From NCBI GenBank assembly GCA_003290165.1, contig QNQO01000521.1:645365-709364 (forward strand): DNA of 64,000 bases, written 5' to 3'. The notes under the pieces are model-generated. The model made no database searches, was not told where the DNA came from, and saw only the letters and a list, made by a program, of their open reading frames with translations. Origin of the DNA: Berberis thunbergii. Its lineage: Eukaryota > Streptophyta > Magnoliopsida > Ranunculales > Berberidaceae. A program made the position numbers and the translations under genes. This document shows positions 34,111 through 58,943 of the stretch, in pieces; within the stretch, counting starts at the first letter, position 1; each line of letters opens with the position of its first letter.

Positions 34111-34209
34111 GCTTAATTGAACTTTGTTTAAAATTGAAAACAATTTGAGTTTAATTTGAAAATTGTTTTGAATAAAAACAGAGATTAAAAGACTTTAATT
34201 TGATCAAGC

Positions 34210-34281
34210 CAATCGATCGATTTAGCTCTAAGACAGTTTCCTGTTTTACACTTAGAGAGGACCTAGAAGATCTTATCAGAG
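34210..34281 (-). ncRNA. Conserved 72-nt leader stem-loop element, B unit 2
   Basis: Identical in sequence to the unit 1 copy and in the same place in the leader. Confidence 0.55.
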
Positions 34282-34807
34282 GTTGATCCTTCTTTTAATT
34301 GAAGGTTTTAATAAGAAAAGAAATCAATTTGATTTTTAAAGAACATCAGAAGGTATGTAACCTTATTGAATGACACAATTCTGATCTAGGGAACATAAAA
34401 ATACAAGATCGGGATTTCAATTTAAGAAGATGATTTCAAGTAAATCTGATTTTGAAAATTCAAAATTATGTTCTTAATACCTAGATATCATGATAATTGC
34501 AAGATCTAATATCTATAAAAATCTAATGATAAATCTAGAATAAATCTTGAAAACAAAGACAAACTTACTTCAATTTAATTTGAGGATGGGAGTTGGGAAT
34601 ACTTGCATCCGGACCACCTACAGCTGGAACACCTAATTTTGAATGGGACCACCTAACCACGATCACTCCTTCTGCGCTCACCATGGCGACTTACACTTGG
34701 ATCTGGCTCCTAACGGCTGACCAACACTCTTAGGCTTGCCAACGCTATCAACGGCTGACCAATGATACCTTAGACTACCAACTATTCCCCCCAAAGAAAA
34801 ATGAAGG

Positions 34808-34823
34808 CTTGGCTCTGATACCA
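34808..34823 (-). other. tRNA-Met primer-binding site, B unit 2
   Basis: The minus strand reads TGGTATCAGAGCCAAG, identical to unit 1. Confidence 0.85.
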
Positions 34824-35108
34824 ATTTCTACCCCAGGAGTTATCAAGATGATAATAGATAGAAGAAGATGGCAAATAGTATGATATGCAGATAATATGCA
34901 ACGAAATTTTGAAGAAACAAAATAAGAAATACTGAAATCAAAACAGAAATCTTAGCCCATCTTATATTCTATCCTTGATCTGTTTAGACGAACGGTGCCA
35001 ATTCACCTTCTTAGGGGTGAATAATGAGATGTTCAATTAAAAACAGATCGTAGATAAAATAAAAGAAGAGATAAATAAATAAAATAACTAAGATAGATGA
35101 AAGACTTC

Positions 35109-35114
35109 TTTATT
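35109..35114 (-). terminator. Polyadenylation signal, B unit 3
   Basis: AATAAA on the minus strand, same position as in the other units. Confidence 0.65.
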
Positions 35115-35259
35115 AATAATCAAGAAGTAATATACAAGAAGTAGAAAAGAAAATAAAAGAAACAGAGAGGAAAGCTTAAGGGACTTACAGGTTGAAAGGG
35201 AAGAGACTAAAAACTGATTAGAGAAAAAAAACTAGTTTTCCTACATGTACAAACTACTT

Positions 35260-35687
35260 CTATATTTATAGCTAAAGGTTGCTTCGAGAAGAAGCCTTGC
35301 TGGAAGATAAGAATCCTTTGGACTATTTGTCTTTTGTGTGAGTGGAGGTGGACTGTTGAATCATGCTTCTACTGTGCACCTTTTGACTGTCGGCAGATAC
35401 TGTTGAAGATGCTTCGACTGTAGCTGCACTAATGGAGTTGACTGTAGCTTCACGCGGAGGCTTTTGCAAAGAAGGAAAGATGCTTGTCGGGCTGTCTGTT
35501 GACTATAGCCGAAAGCACTTTTGTTGTTTTTGGAGCTGGCAGATGCTGCTATTGATGGGAATGGACATGGGACCGGACGACTGCAAAGTCGTTGTTTGCT
35601 TGTGGATGTGGCGGAGAAGGCCTTTGAGTGCTTGTGGAGGTGGCAGATAACGCCATTGATTGTCATACTAGACATGGGTCCACTTAG
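35260..35687 (-). promoter_or_regulatory. B promoter, between units 2 and 3
   Basis: TATA box CTATAAATATAG at 35271-35260. It would serve unit 2. The variable five bases are at 35237-35241. Confidence 0.7.
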
Positions 35688-38600
35688 TTAGTTGGAGAAG
35701 ACATTGTAACAGTCATCATCAACCTTGGGAAGAACTGTTGCGTCGTCTTCTTCAGATGTTTCTGAGCTTATTGTTTCAAAAAGCTGCTTAGGAATCAGCT
35801 TTTTTGGAGATTGTCTGAGAAGATGGCGGAGAGCTTTTTCTTCAGACCATGGAGAAATGGGATTTACCTGAGGAGCAGGTACTTGAGGATGTTTGGAGAA
35901 GAAGCGGAGAACTCCTTCTTTTGTTGCATGGGAGTGATCAAGTTGAGACCACCATTTGACCATGAAGCGGCGACAAAACCACTTTGGTGATTGTTGAGAT
36001 TGACATGGCTTGGATAATTCTGAACACTGGTAATCCCAGCATAAAATCCAAGATAATCTAAATTGAATAAAAAACCAGAGTGACAACACCTGTTCAGTGG
36101 ACGGCATTGGAGGCTGGTATTGAGACTGAAAAACCTTCCATCCTTCTTGTACATCAAGAGGGACAATTTCTAGAACAGGACCAAAATGACTCCACCATGT
36201 TTGTTGAAACCAAAGTGGAACAGTCTTTTGGCAGAAGATTGGACAGAACTGAAGAAGCCATGAATGACCGCAGTTTTGTGATTGAATGAAGAAGGCTCTT
36301 GACCAAGCTAATTTGTAGTCAAGATAATTGTAGACTGGAGGAACATAGTTCACTGAGAACTTCTTGGGAAAATGGGGAAGCTGGTTCCAATCAGCTTCAG
36401 AGAGAACTTTGATGATTTGGCAGTAGGAGACTGCAATATTTTCAGAATTGTCATAGTGATGGGTTACTATAACAGAATCTGAGTCTACAAGAATGAACTC
36501 GTAGAATTCTTGAGTTTTGGAAGGGTCTGCTTCTTCAAACTGTTGTTGAGGAAGAAACAGATTTTGGGCTATGAGCTGGGGCTCATTGATCAGATCGTAC
36601 ATCGAAGGTTCGATCATACAGATGAATTCAAGACTTTGTTGTGAAAGGAAAAGATTTGATGCCGAATGTAACGGCTCTGGAGAACTGGTTCTGGAAGAGC
36701 CAGTGGCTTCTGTGTTCAAGGGATTGAACCTTTGAGCAAGAACAGAAGAAAGAAAGGTCTGATGCTTTGATGCAGAAGGCAACATAGCATATTGGGATTT
36801 TGATTTTGGTTTTGGGACAGAAGAAGGTTTAGGAGACGATGAGTTAGAAGAACTCATTGTTGCTAAGCAAAACTCTCTGGATAAAGAACATACAAGAGAG
36901 TTGTCATTCTCTGTTAAAAACAAAATCAATGGTTGAAAATGATCATGCCACTTGGCAAAGATCTGTTTGAAAACATTTAAAATCCTTTTGATGGATTTAA
37001 AAGGTATTTGAAAAGAATGATTTGTTAAATCATTTTGAAAAATATGATTTGTTAAATCATTTTGAAAACTATATAGACCATTGAACATATGATTTTGATT
37101 TTGAAAAATCATGATCAAATCAATTTGAAATATGATGCATGATACAATGGAGAAGACTTCAGAAGAAGTATTGAAATACCAAATACCTGAATGGTAATGG
37201 ATAATAAAGTCATGAATACATTGTGGAAGACTATACTGGTTACGTATACCACTGTATCCTAAAGTGACTTTTCTTGATTTGACTGTTTCGAGATAGACCT
37301 CGGGATTGGAAAATCTTAAATAAGGAAGAAACTTGTTATTGGGCCTGATAAGACAGACATTGGATGAATGGGCTTTGGGCTTGTGCAGATTGACACTAGT
37401 CCATAGTCCTAATTGGTTTTGATTTATGTGAAACCAATAATCTCGAGAAAACATTTTGAAAATCTTTGGAAAAAGAATTTTGCGATTAAATTCATTTTGG
37501 AATTTAGTTGCAAATTCATTTGACCTAAAGATTACAGATTCATTTGACCTAGAGATCTGTGTGTTGATCTCAATAGAATTTTGATATTTGAGAAGTAAAG
37601 AAATAAAGAAAAACTTGAAGGAAGTGTTTTTCATTTTTCTTATTCGTTGATGTCTTTGGATGTTTGATTTAGAGATGATCAAAGGATCATTGAGATGCTT
37701 ATTTGAAGATAGAGATAAACAATCTCTATTGAGGATTGTCAAAATCTCAATGAGGGTATTCATGAGATTGACGTTTGAAAAATGACATAGAGAGAAAACA
37801 TCTCTATGCAAGATATTTAGAATCTCAATGAAGTTATGCATGAGATCAAACTTGTAAAATTCACAGATAGAGTGAAATCTTAAAAGAAGATCAATACAAG
37901 ATAGTGGATAATAAATCCAATGGAAAGTCTGGATTAAAGGCATAGCCTTTATAACAGACTGAAGATTTTCTCTAATTAGATCAGTGATTGTGTTATCATT
38001 AATCCAATGAGAATTGGAAGAAATCAAGGTTTTGATTTCTGTCATATAATATGTCCTAAATTCAGATGTTATCTGATTTAGACACATGTTGGGAAGACTC
38101 AGAGAGTCATTGAAAGAAATGTCATAAAAGACACGAACAAAAGGATGATTTGGACAAACTTGAATTGGAGGAAGACTTCTTGGGAGAGAAGCTCCTTCAA
38201 GGATCCAATGTTCTAATTCAGATTGAATGACCTGATCTCTTTGAATTGTCTTGTGGACGAATTCATTAGTTATCTGGTCATTGTTTTCAAAAAGGATGGT
38301 GTGTCCTCTTTCATAAAATTGAAGAGCTATAGGGCTCAATGGAGTTTTTATTGCTCTATACATAATTATGAATCTTAGAGCAAATGGTTCAACTTCTTTA
38401 ACTAAATCAAAGTTGTTGGACTGACAAGAGATTGTGAGTGTCTCGAGGAGATGTGAATCACAAAGAGACACAGGGAGGTTAGTGCAACATCTGGAATGAG
38501 CTGAACCCCAAGAGAGTGATGACTCTGCAAATTTAAACAGAGTGTCACAGAATTTGTGATGACTATAATTGCGAATTGCAACTGAGTCATAAGAATTAAA

Positions 38601-41600
38601 CCTGGTTAGAGGTTTCAGGGCTGTGTGAATTAAACCTAATTGAAAAGTTTTATGAATTTCCTTAATTAAGGAATTGCAAGGTTTAATTACTAAGCAATGT
38701 TTGTGAAAAATGAAATTAAGGAAACACATATCTAGTTTGATATTGTTTCTCTCAATAATTTCATATTTGAGAATGAAAGGAGGCTGAGATTCAGTTCCTA
38801 TATTGAATGTGATAATGCCATAAGATGTAGCTTTAAAAGGATGAATTGTAGCAAAACATGATATACCAATTTCTTTTTGGGTCATGCTTTGGGCTTGCAA
38901 GAAATCCTTTTTGATACAAACCTTATAGGCATTAGTCCAATTATCTTGTATAGCTAAACTAGGGATGTTAGCCATAGACAAGATACGAGAATTCACAATA
39001 GGAATTAATCCTTCATAAAGATCAGCAAATGAATCAATAAGAGCCTTACAACGAATGGTAAGATCTTGATTGATACAGAGGTTGATTTGGTAAAACCAAC
39101 ACTGATGTTTTGCTTGATTAATGTTATGTAAACATTTTTGAGAAATTTGAACAATATCAGAAGAATATGAAGAATCAAACTTCAGAGATTGAGTCCGATT
39201 TTGATTTAAAATCACAATCTCAATTGTGATATCATTTTCTTCATATTGATTGACAAGAATAGAAGATCTGAAAGATCTTTTAACTCTGTCAAAATTTAGT
39301 TTGTGGTCATAAAAGAGTTTTATGAACTCAGAGTTTAATATGAAATTGAGATTTGTTGTAATGTGAAGAAACTTGTGACTCTGGTTAGTTTCAACACATT
39401 TATCATCATTATTAGATGCAAAGAATTCTGAAACAGAAAGATTATTCAGATTGGGAATCTGAAAATCTTTATCAGATTGTTCAGAATCTGCATTGTTAAT
39501 TTGGTTATTTAATTCTGAAACAGGAAGATTGTTCGAATTTGGAATTTGAAAATCTTCATCAGAATGTTCAGAATCTGAATTGTTACGAACTTGTATATAC
39601 TTATTCGTACTGGATTTAGACATAGCTGCAAATTGAATGGGTTGTTCCAATTTGCAAGTCTTATGGGTTTTGCCAGTCTTTTGGGCCTTGTTAGTCTTAA
39701 GGGCCATTGCACATGTTTGTGCATAATGACCTGGACGTCCACACTCATAGCATATGGGCTTTGAATGCTTCATAGCCGAATGGGGAGACTTAGGCTTATG
39801 TTTCTTATGCCTTTTGGGCGGACTATAATAACGATCATAGTCCTTGGGCTTAAGAGGTTCTGGTCCATATGGACGTTTGGACTTAAATTTTCGGGCTGGA
39901 TGAGACCGATAAAGAAGTTTGGAACGAGATGGCTCCTTGGAAAGAGATGGTTGCTGATGAGGGATTTGAACTCTATCAGTTCCAATTGAATTACAGGAAT
40001 CAAGACAAATTGTATCTTGGTTCTGAATTTGATTGTAAAGCTGCAAAGCACAGCTTTTAATGGAAAAGATGATATCTGCAAATGATAACAATTCATAGGG
40101 GATATCACCGAGATTATTTGCTGTTAATCTGTTTCGACAGATTTTAGCAAACTTTGAAGGAAGACCAGAAATAAATTTCTGCTTCCAAATTGGATTATTA
40201 GAATCAGATTGATTCTCAACTTGTTTAAGAAATAAATATTTGTAAAACCAAAAATGACTTAATGTCGGACATTTGAGGTTTGACAATAAAATTTCATTGT
40301 TTGTATTAGAATTATCCACAAAAATTTCCAAGATGCAGAAGATCAATCTATGAACTGCATATGGACTGACTAAACTCTTAGATTTAGTTATTCTGGGATT
40401 TTCTAATAATTGGTTTTGTTTTTGCTTAGGATAAATATCCCACCATTTCTTGAGTATTCCAGAAAATCCATCGATGAGTAGTCTTGCTATTGTAGTTTCA
40501 GGTTTCCCTTGACTACGATAAACAAAGGCTATCATGATCATTTCATGGAGTAACTTAATCGTATTTTCTACAGAGAGACCATCTATATTCCATGTATAGA
40601 GGTACTTTGTAGAAATTAATGTATTTATTTGAAGAGGTGATGGTTCTTCAAATTGCATATTTATATTTGAATTTTGATTGTGAATTATGCCAGGTTTAGC
40701 ATTTGTTAAGGAATTGATCTCATATTGACAATAAGTCAAGTGATGATCTAATTCAATGCTAGAAGGTTGTGCATATTTCAACAGATTGATATCGTATTGA
40801 ATATAATTCAAACGATCTAATTCAATCATTGGATCAAAATTGTGAATACAATTAATTTTATCTTTAGCAGAGACAGTAGTAACATAAGGTTTGTGACTAG
40901 TACAAGCTGCTAATTTAGTGGTTTGAATCCTTTTATGTTGAGAAATTAGAACATTTTGTTCCTCATAAGTAGGTACAGAGTACGATACTGGATTAACATC
41001 AGTAGGTACCTTGTACAATACTGGTTTTGATTCAAAGGGTTGGTTATGAATCAATTGAGTATTAGTCAATTGATCATCCTGGCTTTGATCATTAGAACAA
41101 TGATCTATGATCAGTTCAGAATCCAACAAATTAGTATTGTTAGGTTGTATAACCCTACTAATTCCTTTGAATGAGTTCTCATTATCATTGTGAGTGGAAG
41201 AAGAAGCAACTTCAAGTGCTTCACTTAATGGTAGATCAGATTTTTTAACCGTATTGGTTCTGTTGGATATTCTTGTTTTGTATTTGTAATAGTTAAAACA
41301 TGAACCTGAGGTACATGTATATTGAAATACCAGTCTAGGAATGGTATATTGGTTTTTAATTGTTCACAACAATCATAGAAAGGTTTGTTGAGGGCAAATC
41401 TTTCTATTTCTGTTGTTTGTGATTGAAATTTCAATCTTCTTTCTGTGTTTTCTAGAGATAAGAAATCTCTTTTGATGAACTCTTTGTCGACTTTAAAAGG
41501 TGTAGACAGAGAAGTCAGACAACTTACTCTAGGCAGAAACTTCATTTCTGACTGAGTTAAGGGTTTAATAGGAGAATGATTCTCCATCTGAGATTGAGTG

Positions 41601-41767
41601 AGTAACTCAAGATTGGAAGTTGATTGCTTGTTCTGAGGAAACTGGGTCGTATCACTCAGACTAGCAATACTTGTTTGAGGAAGAACTTCAGACGGTGTTG
41701 AAGTTCTATGACTTTGAAATTGCTTAAGACCATTAGTCTTAGCATTGTTAGTCTTAAAAGACTTCAT
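35688..41767 (-). pseudogene. Type-B fused polyprotein, unit 3, one frameshift
   Basis: Same protein as units 1 and 2 but broken by loss of one T near 41258, about 170 codons from the start. The upstream part ends after a short out-of-frame tail at 41225, and the remaining 1800-odd codons stay open to 35688. Everything from the coat-protein region to the ORF2 tail is otherwise intact. A one-base change in a short T run could be a true mutation or a sequencing error. Confidence 0.85.
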
Positions 41768-41866
41768 GCTTAATTGAACTTTGTTTAAAATTGAAAACAA
41801 TTTGAGTTTAATTTGAAAATTGTTTTGAATAAAAACAGAGATTAAAAGACTTTAATTTGATCAAGC

Positions 41867-41938
41867 CAATCGATCGATTTAGCTCTAAGACAGTTTCCTG
41901 TTTTACACTTAGAGAGGACCTAGAAGATCTTATCAGAG
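41867..41938 (-). ncRNA. Conserved 72-nt leader stem-loop element, B unit 3
   Basis: Same sequence as units 1 and 2. Confidence 0.55.
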
Positions 41939-42464
41939 GTTGATCCTTCTTTTAATTGAAGGTTTTAATAAGAAAAGAAATCAATTTGATTTTTAAAGAA
42001 CATCAGAAGGTATGTAACCTTATTGAATGACACAATTCTGATCTAGGGAACATAAAAATACAAGATCGGGATTTCAATTTAAGAAGATGATTTCAAGTAA
42101 ATCTGATTTTGAAAATTCAAAATTATGTTCTTAATACCTAGATATCATGATAATTGCAAGATCTAATATCTATAAAAATCTAATGATAAATCTAGAATAA
42201 ATCTTGAAAACAAAGACAAACTTACTTCAATTTAATTTGAGGATGGGAGTTGGGAATACTTGCATCCGGACCACCTACAGCTGGAACACCTAATTTTGAA
42301 TGGGACCACCTAACCACGATCACTCCTTCTGCGCTCACCATGGCGACTTACACTTGGATCTGGCTCCTAACGGCTGACCAACACTCTTAGGCTTGCCAAC
42401 GCTATCAACGGCTGACCAATGATACCTTAGACTACCAACTATTCCCCCCAAAGAAAAATGAAGG

Positions 42465-42479
42465 CTTGGCTCTGATACC
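42465..42479 (-). other. Truncated primer-binding site at the inversion junction
   Basis: The minus strand reads GGTATCAGAGCCAAG. The leading T and everything beyond it are replaced by plus-strand B sequence after about three filler bases. Confidence 0.8.
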
Positions 42480-42485
42480 TTCTTA

Positions 42486-45400
42486 AAGCTACATCTTATG
42501 GCATTATCACATTCAATATAGGAACTGAATCTCAGCCTCCTTTCATTCTCAAATATGAAATTATTGAGAGAAACAATATCAAACTAGATATGTGTTTCCT
42601 TAATTTCATTTTTCACAAACATTGCTTAGTAATTAAACCTTGCAATTCCTTAATTAAGGAAATTCATAAAACTTTTCAATTAGGTTTAATTCACACAGCC
42701 CTGAAACCTCTAACCAGGTTTAATTCTTATGACTCAGTTGCAATTCGCAATTATAGTCATCACAAATTCTGTGACACTCTGTTTAAATTTGCAGAGTCAT
42801 CACTCTCTTGGGGTTCAGCTCATTCCAGATGTTGCACTAACCTCCCTGTGTCTCTTTGTGATTCACATCTCCTCGAGACACTCACAATCTCTTGTCAGTC
42901 CAACAACTTTGATTTAGTTAAAGAAGTTGAACCATTTGCTCTAAGATTCATAATTATGTATAGAGCAATAAAAACTCCATTGAGCCCTATAGCTCTTCAA
43001 TTTTATGAAAGAGGACACACCATCCTTTTTGAAAACAATGACCAGATAACTAATGAATTCGTCCACAAGACAATTCAAAGAGATCAGGTCATTCAATCTG
43101 AATTAGAACATTGGATCCTTGAAGGAGCTTCTCTCCCAAGAAGTCTTCCTCCAATTCAAGTTTGTCCAAATCATCCTTTTGTTCGTGTCTTTTATGACAT
43201 TTCTTTCAATGACTCTCTGAGTCTTCCCAACATGTGTCTAAATCAGATAACATCTGAATTTAGGACATATTATATGACAGAAATCAAAACCTTGATTTCT
43301 TCCAATTCTCATTGGATTAATGATAACACAATCACTGATCTAATTAGAGAAAATCTTCAGTCTGTTATAAAGGCTATGCCTTTAATCCAGACTTTCCATT
43401 GGATTTATTATCCACTATCTTGTATTGATCTTCTTTTAAGATTTCACTCTATCTGTGAATTTTACAAGTTTGATCTCATGCATAACTTCATTGAGATTCT
43501 AAATATCTTGCATAGAGATGTTTTCTCTCTATGTCATTTTTCAAACGTCAATCTCATGAATACCCTCATTGAGATTTTGACAATCCTCAATAGAGATTGT
43601 TTATCTCTATCTTCAAATAAGCATCTCAATGATCCTTTGATCATCTCTAAATCAAACATCCAAAGACATCAACGAATAAGAAAAATGAAAAACACTTCCT
43701 TCAAGTTTTTCTTTATTTCTTTACTTCTCAAATATCAAAATTCTATTGAGATCAACACACAGATCTCTAGGTCAAATGAATCTGTAATCTTTAGGTCAAA
43801 TGAATTTGCAACTAAATTCCAAAATGAATTTAATCGCAAAATTCTTTTTCCAAAGATTTTCAAAATGTTTTCTCGAGATTATTGGTTTCACATAAATCAA
43901 AACCAATTAGGACTATGGACTAGTGTCAATCTGCACAAGCCCAAAGCCCATTCATCCAATGTCTGTCTTATCAGGCCCAATAACAAGTTTCTTCCTTATT
44001 TAAGATTTTCCAATCCCGAGGTCTATCTCGAAACAGTCAAATCAAGAAAAGTCACTTTAGGATACAGTGGTATACGTAACCAGTATAGTCTTCCACAATG
44101 TATTCATGACTTTATTATCCATTACCATTCAGGTATTTGGTATTTCAATACTTCTTCTGAAGTCTTCTCCATTGTATCATGCATCATATTTCAAATTGAT
44201 TTGATCATGATTTTTCAAAATCAAAATCATATGTTCAATGGTCTATATAGTTTTCAAAATGATTTAACAAATCATATTTTTCAAAATGATTTAACAAATC
44301 ATTCTTTTCAAATACCTTTTAAATCCATCAAAAGGATTTTAAATGTTTTCAAACAGATCTTTGCCAAGTGGCATGATCATTTTCAACCATTGATTTTGTT
44401 TTTAACAGAGAATGACAACTCTCTTGTATGTTCTTTATCCAGAGAGTTTTGCTTAGCAACAATGAGTTCTTCTAACTCATCGTCTCTTAAACCTTCTTCT
44501 GTCCCAAAACCAAAATCAAAATCCCAATATGCTATGTTGCCTTCTGCATCAAAGCATCAGACCTTTCTTTCTTCTGTTCTTGCTCAAAGGTTCAATCCCT
44601 TGAACACAGAAGCCACTGGCTCTTCCAGAACCAGTTCTCCAGAGCCGTTACATTCGGCATCAAATCTTTTCCTTTCACAACAAAGTCTTGAATTCATCTG
44701 TATGATCGAACCTTCGATGTACGATCTGATCAATGAGCCCCAGCTCATAGCCCAAAATCTGTTTCTTCCTCAACAACAGTTTGAAGAAGCAGACCCTTCC
44801 AAAACTCAAGAATTCTACGAGTTCATTCTTGTAGACTCAGATTCTGTTATAGTAACCCATCACTATGACAATTCTGAAAATATTGCAGTCTCCTACTGCC
44901 AAATCATCAAAGTTCTCTCTGAAGCTGATTGGAACCAGCTTCCCCATTTTCCCAAGAAGTTCTCAGTGAACTATGTTCCTCCAGTCTACAATTATCTTGA
45001 CTACAAATTAGCTTGGTCAAGAGCCTTCTTCATTCAATCACAAAACTGCGGTCATTCATGGCTTCTTCAGTTCTGTCCAATCTTCTGCCAAAAGACTGTT
45101 CCACTTTGGTTTCAACAAACATGGTGGAGTCATTTTGGTCCTGTTCTAGAAATTGTCCCTCTTGATGTACAAGAAGGATGGAAGGTTTTTCAGTCTCAAT
45201 ACCAGCCTCCAATGCCGTCCACTGAACAGGTGTTGTCACTCTGGTTTTTTATTCAATTTAGATTATCTTGGATTTTATGCTGGATTACCAGTGTTCAGAA
45301 TTATCCAAGCCATGTCAATCTCAACAATCACCAAAGTGGTTTTGTCGCCGCTTCATGGTCAAATGGTGGTCTCAACTTGATCACTCCCATGCAACAAAAG

Positions 45401-45630
45401 AAGGAGTTCTCCGCTTCTTCTCCAAACATCCTCAAGTACCTGCTCCTCAGGTAAATCCCATTTCTCCATGGTCTGAAGAAAAAGCTCTCCGCCATCTTCT
45501 CAGACAATCTCCAAAAAAGCTGATTCCTAAGCAGCTTTTTGAAACAATAAGCTCAGAAACATCTGAAGAAGACGACGCAACAGTTCTTCCCAAGGTTGAT
45601 GATGACTGTTACAATGTCTTCTCCAACTAA
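42486..45630 (+). pseudogene. Type-B polyprotein, unit 4, truncated and frameshifted
   Basis: The frame is open from the junction; its first ATG is at 42590. It covers the end of the protease remnant, movement protein, RT and RNase H remnants and most of ORF2. Loss of one G near 45283 (GGG to GG in the WILCWDY region) throws the last 115 codons into another frame, which is open from about 45268 to the normal stop at 45630. The linker, coat protein and zinc knuckle are missing. One further change replaces Pro by Leu just after the ORF2 start. Confidence 0.85.
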
Positions 45631-46058
45631 CTAAGTGGACCCATGTCTAGTATGACAATCAATGGCGTTATCTGCCACCTCCACAAGCACTCAAAGGCCT
45701 TCTCCGCCACATCCACAAGCAAACAACGACTTTGCAGTCGTCCGGTCCCATGTCCATTCCCATCAATAGCAGCATCTGCCAGCTCCAAAAACAACAAAAG
45801 TGCTTTCGGCTATAGTCAACAGACAGCCCGACAAGCATCTTTCCTTCTTTGCAAAAGCCTCCGCGTGAAGCTACAGTCAACTCCATTAGTGCAGCTACAG
45901 TCGAAGCATCTTCAACAGTATCTGCCGACAGTCAAAAGGTGCACAGTAGAAGCATGATTCAACAGTCCACCTCCACTCACACAAAAGACAAATAGTCCAA
46001 AGGATTCTTATCTTCCAGCAAGGCTTCTTCTCGAAGCAACCTTTAGCTATAAATATAG
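45631..46058 (+). promoter_or_regulatory. B promoter, unit 4
   Basis: TATA box CTATAAATATAG at 46047-46058. It would drive transcription rightward through the unit 5 leader and ORF. The variable five bases are at 46077-46081 and here are TAAAA, the only non-purine-only variant. Confidence 0.72.
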
Positions 46059-46200
46059 AAGTAGTTTGTACATGTATAAAAACTAGTTTTTTTTTCTCTA
46101 ATCAGTTTTTAGTCTCTTCCCTTTCAACCTGTAAGTCCCTTAAGCTTTCCTCTCTGTTTCTTTTCTTTTCTACTTCTTGTATATTACTTCTTGATTATTA

Positions 46201-46206
46201 ATAAAG
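46201..46206 (+). terminator. Polyadenylation signal, B unit 4
   Basis: AATAAA, 153 nt below the TATA box. Confidence 0.65.
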
Positions 46207-46490
46207 AAGTCTTTCATCTATCTTAGTTATTTTATTTATTTATCTCTTCTTTTATTTTATCTACGATCTGTTTTTAATTGAACATCTCATTATTCACCCC
46301 TAAGAAGGTGAATTGGCACCGTTCGTCTAAACAGATCAAGGATAGAATATAAGATGGGCTAAGATTTCTGTTTTGATTTCAGTATTTCTTATTTTGTTTC
46401 TTCAAAATTTCGTTGCATATTATCTGCATATCATACTATTTGCCATCTTCTTCTATCTATTATCATCTTGATAACTCCTGGGGTAGAAAT

Positions 46491-46506
46491 TGGTATCAGA
46501 GCCAAG
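46491..46506 (+). other. tRNA-Met primer-binding site, B unit 5
   Basis: TGGTATCAGAGCCAAG, 444 nt below the TATA box. Fourteen bases match the tRNA-Met 3' end complement. Confidence 0.87.
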
Positions 46507-47203
46507 CCTTCATTTTTCTTTGGGGGGAATAGTTGGTAGTCTAAGGTATCATTGGTCAGCCGTTGATAGCGTTGGCAAGCCTAAGAGTGTTGGTCAGCCG
46601 TTAGGAGCCAGATCCAAGTGTAAGTCGCCATGGTGAGCGCAGAAGGAGTGATCGTGGTTAGGTGGTCCCATTCAAAATTAGGTGTTCCAGCTGTAGGTGG
46701 TCCGGATGCAAGTATTCCCAACTCCCATCCTCAAATTAAATTGAAGTAAGTTTGTCTTTGTTTTCAAGATTTATTCTAGATTTATCATTAGATTTTTATA
46801 GATATTAGATCTTGCAATTATCATGATATCTAGGTATTAAGAACATAATTTTGAATTTTCAACATCAGATTTACTTGAAATCATCTTCTTAAATTGAAAT
46901 CCCGATCTTGTATTTTTATGTTCCCTAGATCAGAATTGTGTCATTCAATAAGGTTACATACCTTCTGATGTTCTTTAAAAATCAAATTGATTTCTTTTCT
47001 TATTAAAACCTTCAATTAAAAGAAGGATCAACCTCTGATAAGATCTTCTAGGTCCTCTCTAAGTGTAAAACAGGAAACTGTCTTAGAGCTAAATCGATCG
47101 ATTGGCTTGATCAAATTAAAGTCTTTTAATCTCTGTTTTTATTCAAAACAATTTTCAAATTAAACTCAAATTGTTTTCAATTTTAAACAAAGTTCAATTA
47201 AGC
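46507..47203 (+). promoter_or_regulatory. Type-B leader between primer site and ORF
   Basis: About 700 nt of untranslated leader. The first part (to about 46715) is shared with type A (GGTCAGCCGTT repeats, GTTCCAGCTGTAGGTGGTCC). A good splice-donor-like GAA|GTAAGT lies at 46746, where type A instead begins ORF1, so the stretch to the ORF may be an intron in some transcripts. Short upstream ATG frames are present, as is usual in caulimovirid leaders. The 72-nt conserved element lies inside this stretch. Confidence 0.5.
47033..47104 (+). ncRNA. Conserved 72-nt leader stem-loop element shared by A and B
   Basis: CTCTAAG at 47057-47063 can pair with CTTAGAG at 47082-47088. Inside it ACAG (47070-47073) pairs with CTGT (47078-47081) around a GAAA loop, with a 6-nt bulge on the 5' side. 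Outer GATC/CTAG blocks can extend the stem. The type-A copies at 59631-59702 and 60162-60233 match at 70 of 72 positions although flanking DNA is diverged, and the stem difference keeps a G-U pair. Location and conservation suggest a cis-acting RNA signal, for example for packaging or translation, but the function is inferred. Confidence 0.6.
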
Positions 47204-50200
47204 ATGAAGTCTTTTAAGACTAACAATGCTAAGACTAATGGTCTTAAGCAATTTCAAAGTCATAGAACTTCAACACCGTCTGAAGTTCTTCCTCAAACAA
47301 GTATTGCTAGTCTGAGTGATACGACCCAGTTTCCTCAGAACAAGCAATCAACTTCCAATCTTGAGTTACTCACTCAATCTCAGATGGAGAATCATTCTCC
47401 TATTAAACCCTTAACTCAGTCAGAAATGAAGTTTCTGCCTAGAGTAAGTTGTCTGACTTCTCTGTCTACACCTTTTAAAGTCGACAAAGAGTTCATCAAA
47501 AGAGATTTCTTATCTCTAGAAAACACAGAAAGAAGATTGAAATTTCAATCACAAACAACAGAAATAGAAAGATTTGCCCTCAACAAACCTTTCTATGATT
47601 GTTGTGAACAATTAAAAACCAATATACCATTCCTAGACTGGTATTTCAATATACATGTACCTCAGGTTCATGTTTTAACTATTACAAATACAAAACAAGA
47701 ATATCCAACAGAAACCAATACGGTTAAAAAATCTGATCTACCATTAAGTGAAGCACTTGAAGTTGCTTCTTCTTCCACTCACAATGATAATGAGAACTCA
47801 TTCAAAGGAATTAGTAGGGTTATACAACCTAACAATACTAATTTGTTGGATTCTGAACTGATCATAGATCATTGTTCTAATGATCAAAGCCAGGATGATC
47901 AATTGACTAATACTCAATTGATTCATAACCAACCCTTTGAATCAAAACCAGTATTGTACAAGGTACCTACTGATGTTAATCCAGTATCGTACTCTGTACC
48001 TACTTATGAGGAACAAAATGTTCTAATTTCTCAACATAAAAGGATTCAAACCACTAAATTAGCAGCTTGTACTAGTCACAAACCTTATGTTACTACTGTC
48101 TCTGCTAAAGATAAAATTAATTGTATTCACAATTTTGATCCAATGATTGAATTAGATCGTTTGAATTATATTCAATACGATATCAATCTGTTGAAATATG
48201 CACAACCTTCTAGCATTGAATTAGATCATCACTTGACTTATTGTCAATATGAGATCAATTCCTTAACAAATGCTAAACCTGGCATAATTCACAATCAAAA
48301 TTCAAATATAAATATGCAATTTGAAGAACCATCACCTCTTCAAATAAATACATTAATTTCTACAAAGTACCTCTATACATGGAATATAGATGGTCTCTCT
48401 GTAGAAAATACGATTAAGTTACTCCATGAAATGATCATGATAGCCTTTGTTTATCGTAGTCAAGGGAAACCTGAAACTACAATAGCAAGACTACTCATCG
48501 ATGGATTTTCTGGAATACTCAAGAAATGGTGGGATATTTATCCTAAGCAAAAACAAAACCAATTATTAGAAAATCCCAGAATAACTAAATCTAAGAGTTT
48601 AGTCAGTCCATATGCAGTTCATAGATTGATCTTCTGCATCTTGGAAATTTTTGTGGATAATTCTAATACAAACAATGAAATTTTATTGTCAAACCTCAAA
48701 TGTCCGACATTAAGTCATTTTTGGTTTTACAAATATTTATTTCTTAAACAAGTTGAGAATCAATCTGATTCTAATAATCCAATTTGGAAGCAGAAATTTA
48801 TTTCTGGTCTTCCTTCAAAGTTTGCTAAAATCTGTCGAAACAGATTAACAGCAAATAATCTCGGTGATATCCCCTATGAATTGTTATCATTTGCAGATAT
48901 CATCTTTTCCATTAAAAGCTGTGCTTTGCAGCTTTACAATCAAATTCAGAACCAAGATACAATTTGTCTTGATTCCTGTAATTCAATTGGAACTGATAGA
49001 GTTCAAATCCCTCATCAGCAACCATCTCTTTCCAAGGAGCCATCTCGTTCCAAACTTCTTTATCGGTCTCATCCAGCCCGAAAATTTAAGTCCAAACGTC
49101 CATATGGACCAGAACCTCTTAAGCCCAAGGACTATGATCGTTATTATAGTCCGCCCAAAAGGCATAAGAAACATAAGCCTAAGTCTCCCCATTCGGCTAT
49201 GAAGCATTCAAAGCCCATATGCTATGAGTGTGGACGTCCAGGTCATTATGCACAAACATGTGCAATGGCCCTTAAGACTAACAAGGCCCAAAAGACTGGC
49301 AAAACCCATAAGACTTGCAAATTGGAACAACCCATTCAATTTGCAGCTATGTCTAAATCCAGTACGAATAAGTATATACAAGTTCGTAACAATTCAGATT
49401 CTGAACATTCTGATGAAGATTTTCAAATTCCAAATTCGAACAATCTTCCTGTTTCAGAATTAAATAACCAAATTAACAATGCAGATTCTGAACAATCTGA
49501 TAAAGATTTTCAGATTCCCAATCTGAATAATCTTTCTGTTTCAGAATTCTTTGCATCTAATAATGATGATAAATGTGTTGAAACTAACCAGAGTCACAAG
49601 TTTCTTCACATTACAACAAATCTCAATTTCATATTAAACTCTGAGTTCATAAAACTCTTTTATGACCACAAACTAAATTTTGACAGAGTTAAAAGATCTT
49701 TCAGATCTTCTATTCTTGTCAATCAATATGAAGAAAATGATATCACAATTGAGATTGTGATTTTAAATCAAAATCGGACTCAATCTCTGAAGTTTGATTC
49801 TTCATATTCTTCTGATATTGTTCAAATTTCTCAAAAATGTTTACATAACATTAATCAAGCAAAACATCAGTGTTGGTTTTACCAAATCAACCTCTGTATC
49901 AATCAAGATCTTACCATTCGATGTAAGGCTCTTATTGATTCATTTGCTGATCTTTATGAAGGATTAATTCCTATTGTGAATTCTCGTATCTTGTCTATGG
50001 CTAACATCCCTAGTTTAGCTATACAAGATAATTGGACTAATGCCTATAAGGTTTGTATCAAAAAGGATTTCTTGCAAGCCCAAAGCATGACCCAAAAAGA
50101 AATTGGTATATCATGTTTTCCCTTGAACACAGAAGCCACTGGCTCTTCCAGAACCAGTTCTCCAGAGCCGTTACATTCGGCATCAAATCTTTTCCTTTCA

Positions 50201-51154
50201 CAACAAAGTCTTGAATTCATCTGTATGATCGAACCTTCGATGTACGATCTGATCAATGAGCCCCAGCTCATAGCCCAAAATCTGTTTCTTCCTCAACAAC
50301 AGTTTGAAGAAGCAGACCCTTCCAAAACTCAAGAATTCTACGAGTTCATTCTTGTAGACTCAGATTCTGTTATAGTAACCCATCACTATGACAATTCTGA
50401 AAATATTGCAGTCTCCTACTGCCAAATCATCAAAGTTCTCTCTGAAGCTGATTGGAACCAGCTTCCCCATTTTCCCAAGAAGTTCTCAGTGAACTATGTT
50501 CCTCCAGTCTACAATTATCTTGACTACAAATTAGCTTGGTCAAGAGCCTTCTTCATTCAATCACAAAACTGCGGTCATTCATGGCTTCTTCAGTTCTGTC
50601 CAATCTTCTGCCAAAAGACTGTTCCACTTTGGTTTCAACAAACATGGTGGAGTCATTTTGGTCCTGTTCTAGAAATTGTCCCTCTTGATGTACAAGAAGG
50701 ATGGAAGGTTTTTCAGTCTCAATACCAGCCTCCAATGCCGTCCACTGAACAGGTGTTGTCACTCTGGTTTTTTATTCAATTTAGATTATCTTGGATTTTA
50801 TGCTGGGATTACCAGTGTTCAGAATTATCCAAGCCATGTCAATCTCAACAATCACCAAAGTGGTTTTGTCGCCGCTTCATGGTCAAATGGTGGTCTCAAC
50901 TTGATCACTCCCATGCAACAAAAGAAGGAGTTCTCCGCTTCTTCTCCAAACATCCTCAAGTACCTGCTCCTCAGGTAAATCCCATTTCTCCATGGTCTGA
51001 AGAAAAAGCTCTCCGCCATCTTCTCAGACAATCTCCAAAAAAGCTGATTCCTAAGCAGCTTTTTGAAACAATAAGCTCAGAAACATCTGAAGAAGACGAC
51101 GCAACAGTTCTTCCCAAGGTTGATGATGACTGTTACAATGTCTTCTCCAACTAA
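47204..51154 (+). CDS. Type-B polyprotein, unit 5, in-frame internal deletion
   Basis: Open for 1316 codons from ATG 47204. The N-terminal linker, coat-protein region and zinc knuckle are intact. At 50118 the frame jumps from the protease remnant (KEIGISCF) straight into the ORF2 part (PLNTEATGSS), removing 710 codons: the movement protein, RT and RNase H remnants and the start of ORF2. The deletion keeps the frame, so a coat-protein/ORF2 fusion could still be made. The junction has at most a single-base overlap. Whether the shortened protein was ever used is unknown. Confidence 0.8.
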   Translation: MKSFKTNNAKTNGLKQFQSHRTSTPSEVLPQTSIASLSDTTQFPQNKQSTSNLELLTQSQMENHSPIKPLTQSEMKFLPRVSCLTSLSTPFKVDKEFIKRDFLSLENTERRLKFQSQTTEIERFALNKPFYDCCEQLKTNIPFLDWYFNIHVPQVHVLTITNTKQEYPTETNTVKKSDLPLSEALEVASSSTHNDNENSFKGISRVIQPNNTNLLDSELIIDHCSNDQSQDDQLTNTQLIHNQPFESKPVLYKVPTDVNPVSYSVPTYEEQNVLISQHKRIQTTKLAACTSHKPYVTTVSAKDKINCIHNFDPMIELDRLNYIQYDINLLKYAQPSSIELDHHLTYCQYEINSLTNAKPGIIHNQNSNINMQFEEPSPLQINTLISTKYLYTWNIDGLSVENTIKLLHEMIMIAFVYRSQGKPETTIARLLIDGFSGILKKWWDIYPKQKQNQLLENPRITKSKSLVSPYAVHRLIFCILEIFVDNSNTNNEILLSNLKCPTLSHFWFYKYLFLKQVENQSDSNNPIWKQKFISGLPSKFAKICRNRLTANNLGDIPYELLSFADIIFSIKSCALQLYNQIQNQDTICLDSCNSIGTDRVQIPHQQPSLSKEPSRSKLLYRSHPARKFKSKRPYGPEPLKPKDYDRYYSPPKRHKKHKPKSPHSAMKHSKPICYECGRPGHYAQTCAMALKTNKAQKTGKTHKTCKLEQPIQFAAMSKSSTNKYIQVRNNSDSEHSDEDFQIPNSNNLPVSELNNQINNADSEQSDKDFQIPNLNNLSVSEFFASNNDDKCVETNQSHKFLHITTNLNFILNSEFIKLFYDHKLNFDRVKRSFRSSILVNQYEENDITIEIVILNQNRTQSLKFDSSYSSDIVQISQKCLHNINQAKHQCWFYQINLCINQDLTIRCKALIDSFADLYEGLIPIVNSRILSMANIPSLAIQDNWTNAYKVCIKKDFLQAQSMTQKEIGISCFPLNTEATGSSRTSSPEPLHSASNLFLSQQSLEFICMIEPSMYDLINEPQLIAQNLFLPQQQFEEADPSKTQEFYEFILVDSDSVIVTHHYDNSENIAVSYCQIIKVLSEADWNQLPHFPKKFSVNYVPPVYNYLDYKLAWSRAFFIQSQNCGHSWLLQFCPIFCQKTVPLWFQQTWWSHFGPVLEIVPLDVQEGWKVFQSQYQPPMPSTEQVLSLWFFIQFRLSWILCWDYQCSELSKPCQSQQSPKWFCRRFMVKWWSQLDHSHATKEGVLRFFSKHPQVPAPQVNPISPWSEEKALRHLLRQSPKKLIPKQLFETISSETSEEDDATVLPKVDDDCYNVFSN

Positions 51155-51582
51155 CTAAGTGGACCCATGTCTAGTATGACAATCAATGGCGTTATCTGCC
51201 ACCTCCACAAGCACTCAAAGGCCTTCTCCGCCACATCCACAAGCAAACAACGACTTTGCAGTCGTCCGGTCCCATGTCCATTCCCATCAATAGCAGCATC
51301 TGCCAGCTCCAAAAACAACAAAAGTGCTTTCGGCTATAGTCAACAGACAGCCCGACAAGCATCTTTCCTTCTTTGCAAAAGCCTCCGCGTGAAGCTACAG
51401 TCAACTCCATTAGTGCAGCTACAGTCGAAGCATCTTCAACAGTATCTGCCGACAGTCAAAAGGTGCACAGTAGAAGCATGATTCAACAGTCCACCTCCAC
51501 TCACACAAAAGACAAATAGTCCAAAGGATTCTTATCTTCCAGCAAGGCTTCTTCTCGAAGCAACCTTTAGCTATAAATATAG
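51155..51582 (+). promoter_or_regulatory. B promoter, unit 5
   Basis: TATA box CTATAAATATAG at 51571-51582. The variable five bases are at 51601-51605 (GGGAG). It points toward the type-A ORF1, so it could drive type-A expression here. Confidence 0.7.
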
Positions 51583-51728
51583 AAGTAGTTTGTACATGTA
51601 GGGAGACTAGTTTTTTTTTCTCTAATCAGTTTTTAGTCTCTTCCCTTTCAACCTGTAAGTCCCTTAAGCTTTCCTCTCTGTTTCTTTTATTTTCTTTTCT
51701 ACTTCTTGTATATTACTTCTTGATTATT

Positions 51729-51734
51729 AATAAA
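51729..51734 (+). terminator. Polyadenylation signal, B unit 5
   Basis: AATAAA, 157 nt below the unit 5 TATA box and before the type-A leader. Confidence 0.65.
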
Positions 51735-51774
51735 GAAGTCTTTCATCTATCTTAGTTATTTTATTTATTTATCT

Positions 51775-52003
51775 CTTCTTTTATTTTATCTACGATCTGT
51801 TTTTAATTGAACATCTCATTATTCACCCCTAAGAAGGTGAATTGGCACCGTTCGTCTAAACAGATCAAGGATAGAATATAAGATGGGCTAAGATTTCTGT
51901 TTTGATTTCAGTATTTCTTATTTTGTTTCTTCAAAATTTCGTTGCATATTATCTGCATATCATACTATTTGCCATCTTCTTCTATCTATTATCATCTTGA
52001 TAG
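51775..52003 (+). repeat. Type-B remnant joined to type A, primer site lost
   Basis: The start of a further B unit, ending at ATCATCTTGATA, after which the sequence switches to the type-A leader (GTTGTGAGTCCAAGG). About 50 bp including the primer-binding site are missing at the switch. Confidence 0.8.
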
Positions 52004-52207
52004 TTGTGAGTCCAAGGTACTGTTGGTCAGCCGTTGATAGCGTTGGTAAGCCATATGAGTGTTTGGTCAGCCGTTAGGAACCAGATCCAGTGTAAGTCGC
52101 CATGGTGTGCGCAGAGTGTGATCTAGGTTAGGTGGTCCCACTTAGGTGTTCCAGCTGTAGGTGGTCCGAGTACAGTGTTCCTCCCAATCCCTAAGCAATC
52201 TGAAAAG

Positions 52208-55200
52208 ATGTCTTTGTTTTCAAAATTTTCCAGAACTTCTAGTTCTAGGTCAAACAGTTTACCAACCAAAATGGAAGGTAGAATTTCTGAAGTTGAACAA
52301 GATTTACAAAACTGGTCTATACCAGTAATCCCCCAAAAGGAGATTTATGAAATTTCTAAATCCATATTTTCTCAAAAAACTGAAGATTTAATCAGTATTG
52401 TTGAACAAACAATACCGATAAATAAATCTTTAGATTCAAAACAATTACTTAATTATCAAACAATCCAATCTTTAATCAAAGAAAAATACAAATATATCCA
52501 CTTGGGATTAATCCAAATAGCCTTAAAACCTTTAACTAGGTTAGGTCTTGACACTTGTGCTTTAGTCGCTCTTCGCGACTGCAGACACAATAAATTTAGT
52601 GATTCTCTGCTTGGAATCGCAGAATCTTCACTCTCAATGGGTCCAGTTTATTTTAACTGTTACCCTGACTTCTCTGTGTCTCTCTGTGATCCTCATATCT
52701 TCGAGACACTCACTCTTAATATTCAGACCTCTGGCTTTGATATGGCTGAAGGTTCTGAACCATTTGCTTTAATTTATAAAATCACTTATAAAGCAATGAA
52801 AACCCAATTAAGGCCTCGTGCCATACAAATTGATGATAGAGGACATACTACACTCTTTGAGGTCAATGACCAAAAGACTAATGTTATTGTCCCTAGAACG
52901 ATAAAATGGGATCAGGTTACCCTTCCTGAATCATGGATCATTGAAGGAGTTTCAAACCCAAAGAAACTTCCTCCAAGTGAGATCGACAGAATCCTCTCTT
53001 TCCCAGATGGATCTGTTGAACTGAGATTCAATGATATCAGAAGTACCATTTTTGATCCTTCTAAGTTTGATTCTGGAAGAAGATCTGAATCTTCATTCAG
53101 AACTGCTCCCACCAGGATTCCTTCAAGAACCCCAACTCCTGAAGTAATTCCTCACCTTCAATTAAGGAATATTAGGACCAACCCGAATTATCCTCAAATT
53201 CCTCAACCAGTTTATAATCAAGATGAAGTTCCTGAAACTTCAGAAGCAAATCAATCCCCTACCCAATCTGAAATGGAATTCAGAATTCCTAGGGTACAAG
53301 CTTTATCTAAAACTTTTAAATTAGATAAAGAAAAAATTAAAAGAGATTTCTTATCTCCAGAAAATGATGAAAGAAGAGAAAAGTTCATTGCGCAGACTAC
53401 TGAATCTGAACGCAAAGAATTGAATAAACCTTTCTATTCATGTTGTGAGGAACTTAAAGAAAATATACCATTCTTAGACTGGTATTATAATATTTATATT
53501 CCTCAAATTCATGTCCTAAATGTTACTCCAAAAATCTGGACTAATCATCCAGAAAAGAAAACAGTTAGATCAGTTCTACCCCCTATGGTAGATCTTCAAT
53601 TCAAAGTCTCTGACAATCAATATATTGCTTCACCTTTTTCTCACCCAACAGAAGATTATGTTAATACTCTGATTCAGCAGAATAATTATACTAATCTACT
53701 TCTGTCTGAACTCGGTGAAAAATTAGTTCAAGATCAACTTGTAACTAATGAATTAAGGAAGAAGCAATTAGAAGAAAAAGTAAGCAAAGAACAGGAACTA
53801 AAGAAGCAAAATGTTTTCTTTCAAATTCCTGAACCTTTGGCGCCAAATACATTTTCTTCTAAAACAAATTTATTAAAAGAAATTGATGCCAAACTTGATG
53901 CTCTAAAGATGGATTCAAGATTAAAAATCAACACTCTGTCTCATCCAGCCATGACTGACTGTGATTCAGACATAAGTAATGATTTTGATCCAATGTCTGA
54001 ATTGGATCGGCTTAATTATATTCCTTATCAAGCGAATCCTATTAGACATGCAAAAACAGCATCAAAGCATCCAAAATGGAAAAATCCTATGCCTGTTTCT
54101 AGGAATTTTTATCCTAGACCCTCATTTCCAGATATGCAGTTTGAAGAACGAAACCTTCAGACTTTTGGTTCTTTTTCAACAAAAGAATTATATATTTGGA
54201 ATATTGATGGCGTTAGTGAAGATGCAATTCTTGAATTAACTCAAGAAATGGTAATGATGGCTTCTACTCACAGAGCAGAAGGAAAAGATGATCATACCAT
54301 TGCATCCATCATTATTCAAGGATTTTCCGGCTTAATCAAAGGATGGTGGGATAATTATCTCACTCCTCCAGAAAAAACTGAAATCCTTTTTGCTAGAAAA
54401 ATTGGTCCTGATGGAAACCCAATTAAGATTGAAAATGAACTTGGTCAAGAAACTTTCGTTCCTGACAGTGTGCCTACCTTGATTCAAAGTATTCTTAGGC
54501 ATTTCTTAGGAAATCCTAATGAATATCAAGGTAAAGCCAAAGACTTGCTCATGTCTCATAAGTGTCCAACTCTTAGTCATTTTAGATATTACAAAGATAT
54601 CTTCATGAAAAGAGTCATGCTTCAGACAGACGCAGCAAATCCTTTCTGGAAACGAAAATTCATCTCAGGTCTTCCTGAGATCTTTGCTGAAACTGTTCGT
54701 ACTAGACTCCAAGAACAACATGGAGGTGACATCCAGTACGAGCTTTTAACATTCGGAGATTTAATTGCATTTATTAATAAATGTGCCCTTCAAATTTGTA
54801 ATGATTTAAAATTAAAGAAACAATTAAGAAAACAGCATATTACTGGACCTAAAGAATTAGGTGATTTCTGTCAACAATATGGGTTTGATGATTTTCATTA
54901 TCCAGCCCATTTAAACTCAAAAAGCCATTGGACATCCAAACAAAAATATCGGTCCAACCCGGCCCGACAATTTAAAAAGAAAAAGCCTTATGGCCCAAAG
55001 CCTGCTAAACCACTTGAACAGTATCTTAGCAAGCCCAAGAAACATGGGACACATAAGTCCAAGCCCTTTAAGAAAGAATCCACTTCAAAGCCTGTCTGCT
55101 TTAAGTGTGGACAGCCAGGCCATTATGCAAAACAATGCAGAACGGCCCAAAAGGTCCAAGCCCTTGATCTTCCCAAAAACATAAAACATATGTTCCTTAA

Positions 55201-57745: not shown

Positions 57746-58776
57746 GTTCGTCTTCTAACTCATCTCCCAAACCCAAATCAAAGGCAAGCTATGCAAAGAC
57801 GCCTTCTGCTTCTTTGCAGCCAGCCCCTCTTTCTTATGCCCTTCAATTAACTCAGAAATATTCAGCTCTTGATCAAGCTAAAGAGCTGTCATCTCTGGTA
57901 AGTTTTTCAAAGCCTAATCAGGCACCCCTTCAATACATCAACAAGACCAATCTGGACTTGTTAGGTATTGTTGAACCCCAATTCAGAGTCCTTCTCTCTG
58001 ATCCTCATGCAATCGCTAGGAATCTGTACTCTCCAGATCAACAATATGAAGAGACAGATGCCTTCAAAACCAGAGAATTCTATGAATTTATTCTGGTAGA
58101 TTCAGATTCGATCTCTGTTACTCATCACTATGATGAGACTAAAACTCGAATCACCTTCTCTAAATGTCAGATTTTCAAAGTTCTGACTGAAGCAGAATGG
58201 AATCAACACCCTCGATTCCACAAGAAGCTCTCACAGAGCTATGTTCCCCAGACTTATAGTTATTATGATTATAAGAATGCTTGGACCAGAGCATTTCTTA
58301 TAAGTCCTCATCAATCGGGCCACTCTTGGTTCTTTCTCTTTTGCAAAAAGTTTCATGCCAAAGTACTCCCATTCTGGTTCCAACATCAATGGTGGAGTTC
58401 TTTTGGTCCAGTTCTTGAGATTCTTCCTTCTCCTGTTCGAGAAGGATGGAATGTCTTCAAAGATAAGTACCAGCCTCCTGAACCTATTGATCAACAGGTT
58501 CTATCCATCTGGTTCTTCATTCGCTTCAATCTCGCCTGGATTCTTTGTTGGGATTATGTTTGTTCCAATCCTGATGCCCCAGGTGCTCTATCCAAAGCAA
58601 AACCTTCATGGTTGTCCCGACGCTACAAGGTAAAATGGTGGCAAAGGTTTGACCATTCTAAGGTAACTAAAGAAGGTGTAACAGCCTTCTTCTCCAAAAA
58701 GAGGTGTCTTCTACACCATATGTTCCAGTTCCAACAGGTCCTCCTTCAGAATCATCCTCCAACATCAAACAGTTGA
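57742..58776 (+). pseudogene. Type-A ORF2, frameshifted near its end
   Basis: Starts at ATG 57742 inside ATGA, overlapping the ORF1 stop by four bases, an arrangement suited to stop-restart translation. The protein (MSSSSNSSPKPKSKASYAK) is closely related to the C-terminal fifth of type B and resembles the second ORF described for florendoviruses, function unknown. It has a basic/serine-rich N-terminus, many conserved Trp and aromatic residues (FWFQHQWWSSFGPVLEILP) and an acidic C-terminal tail. One A is missing in the run at 58696-58700, so the frame ends early at 58776. The natural tail, ending DDCYGIDPRDL, is encoded in another frame to 58943. Confidence 0.82.
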
Positions 58777-58943
58777 AGCAGCAGATTCTACAAAAGATCA
58801 AGACCAAACCAACCAGAGCCCAGCTCATAGAAACTCTATCACAGATATGTTCTGATGAAGCTGAGGAAGAAGTCGAAGAAGATGATCAAACAGTTGACCT
58901 CAATGAAGATGACTGTTATGGCATCGATCCTCGAGATTTGTAA

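Follow-up and report, generated by a model that had tools for sequence, protein, structure and literature searches.

A variable five-base block at the predicted RNA start of endogenous pararetroviral units in Berberis thunbergii: a candidate footprint of the first strand transfer

Introduction

Why should viral units that lie next to each other in a plant genome, and that are otherwise almost identical, differ in the same five bases just where their transcripts are predicted to start? This question is raised by the DNA analysed here, a stretch of 64 000 nucleotides (referred to as the window), which makes up the final 64 kb of contig C521 in the 2.24-Gb genome of Berberis thunbergii and contains an array of viral units. 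According to the accessible parts of two publications, tandem arrays of endogenous caulimovirids are arranged head to tail or rearranged, and viral concatemers, recombination or host amplification are thought to be their sources (PMC10377300, PMC8256270); in the portion of the review available to us, their origin is left among several routes (PMC10377300). Compared with the arrays described in these portions, the fast-changing block found here may separate some of the routes.

On balance we consider it probable, with considerable room for doubt, that the block would mark the junction of U3 with R in a bipartite florendovirus-like pararetrovirus and would be a footprint of the first strand transfer in reverse transcription. 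If this is true, five bases per unit help to tell concatemers of separate viral molecules from host duplication, and the purines at the start-proximal bases of these promoters are explained. A genome with many copies would then be an in vivo record of strand transfer, for a virus group of which, to our knowledge, no living member is under study.

Materials and methods

A genome-wide search gave 1162 candidate relatives of the promoter region of the type-B units (Table 1), of which 40 were scored. The sample compared below was chosen and is not a census; it comprises 75 promoters, i.e. the five of the window and 70 others, the latter being the remaining 35 of the 40 scored candidates and all 49 places found by pattern search (some places occur in both lists, and the window's own promoters are in each). 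Two stretches unmatched by the TATA search were dropped (L015, whose promoter has a 2-base gap at that point, and L083 on contig C68), and three of 23 places, two on C6006 and one on C9597, lie outside the sample. Purine fractions were counted after stripping leading T's. For the analysis of pairs, 284 of 2775 pairs with fewer than 400 aligned upstream bases were omitted. Clusters were formed of copies alike in both U3 and R, and the cluster counts cover 64 of the 75 copies.

Results

Three type-B units (c1–c3) stand head to tail on the minus strand (19754–42479) and are followed by an inverted B unit, a partial B unit and a type-A unit (Table 1). In c1, similarity to the other B units stops about 182 nt below the anchor GTACATGTA. 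An AATAAA is located 118–123 nt downstream of the block in all five B units, and R would be about 140 bases long. The motif TGGTATCAGAGC, which we take to be the tRNA-Met primer-binding motif, has the same sequence at three of its four places in the B units, and at the remaining one a unit junction cuts through it; the spacing of about 410 nt between block and motif is found in the three B units that retain it. AATAAA (about 120 nt downstream) and primer motif (about 410 nt downstream) thus stand at the positions that R and the leader require.

Table 1. Coordinates of the viral units and of their control elements within the window
Feature	Position	Strand	Remarks
B unit c1	19754..27411	-	left edge of viral array
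B unit c2	27412..35068	-	
B unit c3	35069..42479	-	
B unit c4	42478..50119	+	inverted relative to c1–c3, circularly permuted
Partial B unit c5	50119..52002	+	joined to type-A unit near primer-binding region
Type-A unit up to palindrome centre	52003..59920	+	
Type-A ORF1	52175..57745	+	MP, coat, zinc knuckle, protease, RT and RNase H domains
Type-A ORF2	57742..58776	+	
Type-A promoter TATA	59269	+	
TATA box of c1	19956	-	start
TATA box of c2	27612	-	start
TATA box of c3	35270	-	start
TATA box of c4	46048..46055	+	
TATA box of c5	51572	+	start
Block of c1	19923..19927	-	GAAGA
Block of c2	27579..27583	-	GAAAG
Block of c3	35237..35241	-	GGAAA
Block of c4	46077..46081	+	TAAAA
Block of c5	51601..51605	+	GGGAG
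Start of putative R of c4	46082..46205	+	A of ACTAG to AATAAA (46200–46205)
Primer-binding motif in c4	46491..46502	+	about 410 nt past block
Primer-binding motif, further place	34812..34823	-	
Primer-binding motif, further place	27155..27166	-	
Primer-binding motif, cut at first base	42469..42480	-	join of c3 with inverted c4
Substituted columns, c1–c4	-6859, -5979, -3801, -2872, -1582		offsets, outside block

The Pfam matches in the type-A ORF1 include MP, Caulimovir_coat_dom, zf-CCHC, RVP, RVT_1 and RNase H, and with these domains and ORF2 the A unit has the florendovirus domain set. For the B units, none of the three pieces of the c2 ORF matched RVT, indicating a B polyprotein without RT, and no movement or protease domains were detected by Pfam in the pieces of this ORF. 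Only DUF7746 and DUF7588, both of which are also present in the A ORF1, reached E 0.001. The carboxy end of B matches A ORF2 with 53% identity over 285 aa (E 2e-107). The two unit types therefore resemble the bipartite endogenous florendoviruses of a tentative genus in the Caulimoviridae, as far as these are described in the accessible part of PMC4241990: an A component with RT, a B component without it, an ORF2 homologue at the carboxy end of B, and mixed insertions of A and B. In contrast to the Vitis A components described there, in which the coat domain is reduced or lost (PMC4241990, seen in part), a coat match is present in the A unit of the window. More than 90% of the intergenic region is alike in A and B of one bipartite florendovirus (Geering et al. 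2014, PMC4241990, in part), whereas A and B of the window share about 86–87% over approximately 180 upstream bases and 82% over 247 leader bases. This A is therefore not called the partner of these Bs.

Searching the window for the pattern GTACATGTA-N5-ACTAG gave five matches, compared to 0 expected. As the initial annotation had described, each of the five B promoters has a 5-mer of its own at this place; pattern search and alignment reproduced all spellings and coordinates as well as the distance of 29–33 nt from the first T of the TATA box TATAAATA. The blocks consist of A and G with one T and are non-random strings; eight of their ten pairs differ at two positions and two differ at four, i.e. 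they are partly alike and not fully rewritten. In the region around the block from -1450 to approximately +180, the five units show no further substitution and differ only by short indels (1 nt at -787; 1–2 nt at +19 to +28, within a T/CT run; 5 nt at +93). Over the whole 7.66-kb unit, c1–c4 show five substituted columns outside the block, in a comparison that lacks the first ~250 bases of c3 and leaves out about 16 bases at the c4 breakpoint; per pair, there are one to five such substitutions (five pairs, c2–c4 not being among them). All five block columns thus vary, compared to five columns in the remaining ~7.65 kb, and the probability of a fully segregating 5-bp stretch anywhere is about 9e-12 (10 segregating columns among 7656, assuming an even spread). 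Differences elsewhere had been put at about one per kilobase; they are indeed rare, but sparser than this rate.

Errors of assembly or polishing among near-identical units might be suspected, particularly as the window stops at a contig end, towards which the indels of the second A arm rise. Yet the changes in the block are substitutions, they always affect the same five positions of units that are otherwise clean, and the same kind of change is found in a second array on contig C276 (see below); we regard this explanation as very unlikely. The type-A palindrome at the contig end (55844–63996) is an observation of its own: its arms differ by 3 substitutions and 50 gapped bases, the gap density climbs towards the contig end, and the second arm has broken frames and is possibly a read artefact or a region of low coverage. 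That the type-A arms agree at the position corresponding to the block had been taken as a sign of inversion at the DNA level. This is weak evidence, since the A promoter has a different sequence and the palindrome reaches the contig end with indels rising towards it.

In all 75 sampled promoters, the TATA box is followed by a spacer with AT and mostly G at its end, then by the block and by AC or a close form of it. Between ATG and AC, 29–33 nt below the TATA box, the sample shows 24 spellings of a block made up of purines, and the AC that follows is mostly conserved; judged by this layout, RNA synthesis is predicted to start at the A of AC. The last base of the block is G in 66 of the 75 copies and in 17 of the 24 block types. 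Replacement without change of length, as originally proposed, holds in the window, where all blocks are five bases long, but in the sample the length varies by about one base either way. Eight of the 13 matches to GTACATGTA-N5-ACTAG lie on other contigs and were discarded as support, as the reversed pattern already gives 23 chance matches genome-wide; at three of these eight places, for which longer sequence was examined (on C68, C534 and C1241), no such TATA box was found beside the motif.

The almost purine-only composition makes the block resemble a polypurine tract, so that it could be a plus-strand primer, or a strand discontinuity subject to error-prone repair. We hold this to be extremely unlikely: the block has only 5–7 bases, its sequence varies and it is placed at the predicted transcription start, while the other discontinuity, the primer-binding motif, is unchanged at the three places where no unit junction cuts it.

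Outside the window, 7 of 76 block columns are polymorphic when blocks are aligned at their right ends, compared to 126 of 7289 upstream (U3) columns (P 4e-4). If gaps are allowed for length changes and placed to minimise substitutions, the number falls to 5 of 76 (P 0.010), and to four block columns (P 0.043) if L038 is dropped in addition, a doubtful copy with an odd R start (GGTCGA) that makes its block uncertain. For comparison, the spacer between TATA box and ATG has 3 polymorphic columns in 293, and the first 90 bases of R have 19 in 997. Thus, a modest excess of block variation is present outside the window. The block varies in 4 of 12 clusters, the window being one of them (3 of 11 without it). 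Among the sampled pairs, 42 have no substitution in more than 600 upstream bases; the block differs in 19 of these and is the same in 23, and the 19 are made up of 10 pairs from the window and 9 from C276. On this contig, six copies carry two blocks, AAAGG and AAGGG, and no upstream substitution. Even over 2564 flank bases, two of the stretches (L086 and L087) show 0 mismatches and 5 gaps, and the blocks of their units differ. C276 is the clearest case of excess block variation outside the window. The peak of diversity that had been predicted to adjoin the RNA start is therefore seen in the window and in the C276 array and, more modestly, in other sampled copies, the start being placed by its distance from the TATA box.

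A short stretch between TATA box and start might also be free of constraint and carry standing variants of a viral swarm that recombination has shuffled. The modest size of the excess outside the window fits this explanation, as do several families with a fixed block (see below). On the other hand, the spacer between TATA box and ATG is equally non-coding and has a lower share of polymorphic columns than the block, for which 4 to 7 of 76 were counted outside the window, and other sites of the window units are nearly invariant. We consider such standing variation unlikely, although it deserves to be taken seriously.

In the initial annotation, many copies sharing one block had been named as a finding that would speak against a rewriting of the block in each replication cycle, and two families of this kind are found. 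In the first, TTAGGG is common to 13 copies on C107 and C5951. Their upstream 680 bases contain 5 polymorphic columns, a degree of likeness close to that of the window units. For 12 of these 13 units, flanking pieces were compared, and pairs differ by 1 to 10 substitutions over 0.5–2.6 kb. Within the sequence read, seven of the 13 depart from the B leader; they do so at six separate joins, and one novel join is common to L027 and L043, which are located on different contigs; thus at least some of the TTAGGG copies multiplied as DNA. In the second family, TAAGAGG is common to 11 copies with 49 variable upstream columns, and several of these copies sit in repeated promoter pairs about 479 bp apart. 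The C107/C5951 and C180 families, in which the block is fixed, thus lead us to reject the idea that every cycle rewrites it, which leaves two options: either the block changes often but not always, or viral copying is mixed with DNA copying. B promoter pairs 478–486 bp apart, recurring with the same block, were seen at L071, L074 and L075 (C1009, C6006). Such recurring same-block pairs on C1009 and C6006 are a sign of DNA amplification.

DNA copying of some sister arrays, as indicated by the junction shared by L027 and L043 and by the promoter pairs that recur on C6006 and C1009, would be in line with a further explanation, in which events after integration (hypermutation, gene conversion or repair by the host) altered the block in an array duplicated by the host. 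In both the window and C276, however, the block varies while the upstream 640–690 bases are free of substitutions, and we know of no host process that would strike five units in just these five bases while sparing 7.6 kb. Host events of this kind are, in our opinion, highly improbable.

If the block marks the U3/R boundary, as we propose, U3 and R may stem from different templates. Indeed, the first ~50 bases after the block fall into distinct classes (e.g. ACTAG, ACTGAG, ACTTCG) that are uncoupled from the upstream sequence. For example, 296 of 300 upstream positions agree between c2 and L020, but in the ~45 bases that follow the block only 29 of 56 do; conversely, L032 and L050 agree at 45 of 46 downstream positions, with 274 of 300 matching upstream. 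Among 200 pairs (58 distinct copies) with a U3 divergence of at most 2%, 69 have a match fraction below 0.75 in R, and the converse is found in 28 pairs; as discordant pairs overlap in their copies, these numbers do not represent independent events. Taken together, the two forms of discordance speak for recombination in which the switch occurs at the block, as is predicted for transfer of strong-stop DNA between RNAs. The classes seen in the first ~50 bases of R might go back to old divergence between lineages, and by themselves they are no proof of strand transfer.

Further along, the leader is mostly conserved and the far end of the exchanged patch is not visible. In 12 comparisons with c2, bins of about 50 bases from +60 to +360 are 88–100% alike, save for one bin in each of four copies (L009, 41/50; L044, 42/50; L050, 16/50; L054, 41/50). 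A recombinant patch reaching to the primer site was considered and dropped, because the bins are too alike to show where a patch ends. Likewise, we do not retain the ACTTCG class of R as an inversion of the ACCGAG class (first 45 bases of R), as the inverted score was equalled by 96 of 2000 shuffles and the forward score by 32 of 2000. Very different classes at the start of the predicted RNA between otherwise similar copies were noted for L013, L020, L021 and the window units.

The same switch at the block would be expected if the variation arose during transcription, from multiple starts or stuttering of Pol II on a purine run, with the variable 5' purines of the RNA then being copied faithfully over the end of U3. 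The almost pure A/G composition of the block, its location at the expected transcription start and its length variation of about one base all agree with such an origin. But stuttering yields runs of a single base and not mixed orders such as GAAGA and GGGAG, and the choice of a start site cannot by itself make bases that are missing from the template. We therefore think it unlikely that Pol II accounts for the block.

Discussion

The first strand transfer could give rise to the variable block as follows. Minus-strand strong-stop DNA would be synthesised as far as the capped 5' end of the RNA, where its end would gain or misplace a few bases, mostly C and T, corresponding to A and G in the viral strand. 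The strong-stop DNA would then shift to R at the 3' end of the same or of another RNA, so that its tip bases, copied from or added at the capped end, face the last bases of U3. Extension of this incompletely matched tip would fix the tip bases, and the last U3 bases would be rewritten with little change in length. Each differing unit of the window would in this case have undergone its own strand transfer before the units were joined. For error-prone first strand transfer as originally suggested, the peak at the predicted start, its recurrence, the haplotype switch and the G in last position are favourable, and the families with a fixed block as well as the base next to the start in the window are not. 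Specifically, bases opposite the cap had been invoked, and G in the last position of 66 of 75 copies agrees with this; in three of the five window blocks, however, A and not G is found beside the predicted start, and there the plain rule fails. The partial likeness of the window blocks and the unevenness of block variation outside the window, where the excess is weak once gaps are allowed, also count against first strand transfer. Transcription starts follow a pyrimidine–purine rule, and a purine before the A departs from it.

In the accessible part of a study of a murine retroviral RT in vitro, the first base added opposite the capped RNA end is almost always dC, followed mainly by dA, which would yield T (PMC6885630). 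The first dC fits the predominance of G in the last position of our blocks, whereas the further dA additions of that enzyme (PMC6885630, in part) differ from the C and T of the minus strand deduced here. The viral enzyme would therefore have to differ, or else extension of mismatches would have to favour C.A and T.G.

Other systems offer partial likenesses. For Moloney virus, errors have reportedly been found at the junction made by the first strand transfer. Our case would likewise concern the first-transfer junction, but here the changes are natural variants in an integrated plant pararetrovirus, comprise 5–7 bases and are nearly purine-only in the viral strand. In Ty1, Mules, Uzun and Gabriel are said to have found, in 1998, replication intermediates with untidy ends and extra bases, and the likeness lies in such additional bases at the termini of intermediates of reverse transcription. 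Ty1, an LTR element of yeast, has an integrase; the virus studied here presumably has no integrase and a single junction in its circular genome. In the literature on caulimovirid and pararetroviral strand transfer, strong-stop DNA, start sites and florendoviruses we found no report of the block, which is a weak absence, as most subscription literature lay outside the search.

A bolder reading, which we put forward only tentatively and think less likely to be true than false, is that the block serves as a natural, partly self-renewing barcode of reverse transcription. The pararetroviral RT would add pyrimidine tails at the cap, which would be extended over the A/G of U3 as C.A and T.G mismatches, and the virus would in this way repeatedly rewrite the bases preceding its own start site. 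If true, reading the barcode separates units from different replication rounds, as in the window, from units copied as DNA.

The joins between units may bear on how the molecules were linked. Of 15 copies examined on C107, C5951 and C2860, 8 leave the B leader at 373–438 bases, the primer site being at about 430, and the other 7 continue beyond 600 bases of B leader. Joins so near the primer site suggest that molecules may have been opened at the minus-strand discontinuity and then linked. A B promoter and leader joined to a type-A leader near the primer site, as at 52002 in the window, was also observed at L012, L032, L034 and L036 on four other contigs, where the A part is 99.6–100% identical to the A unit of the window.
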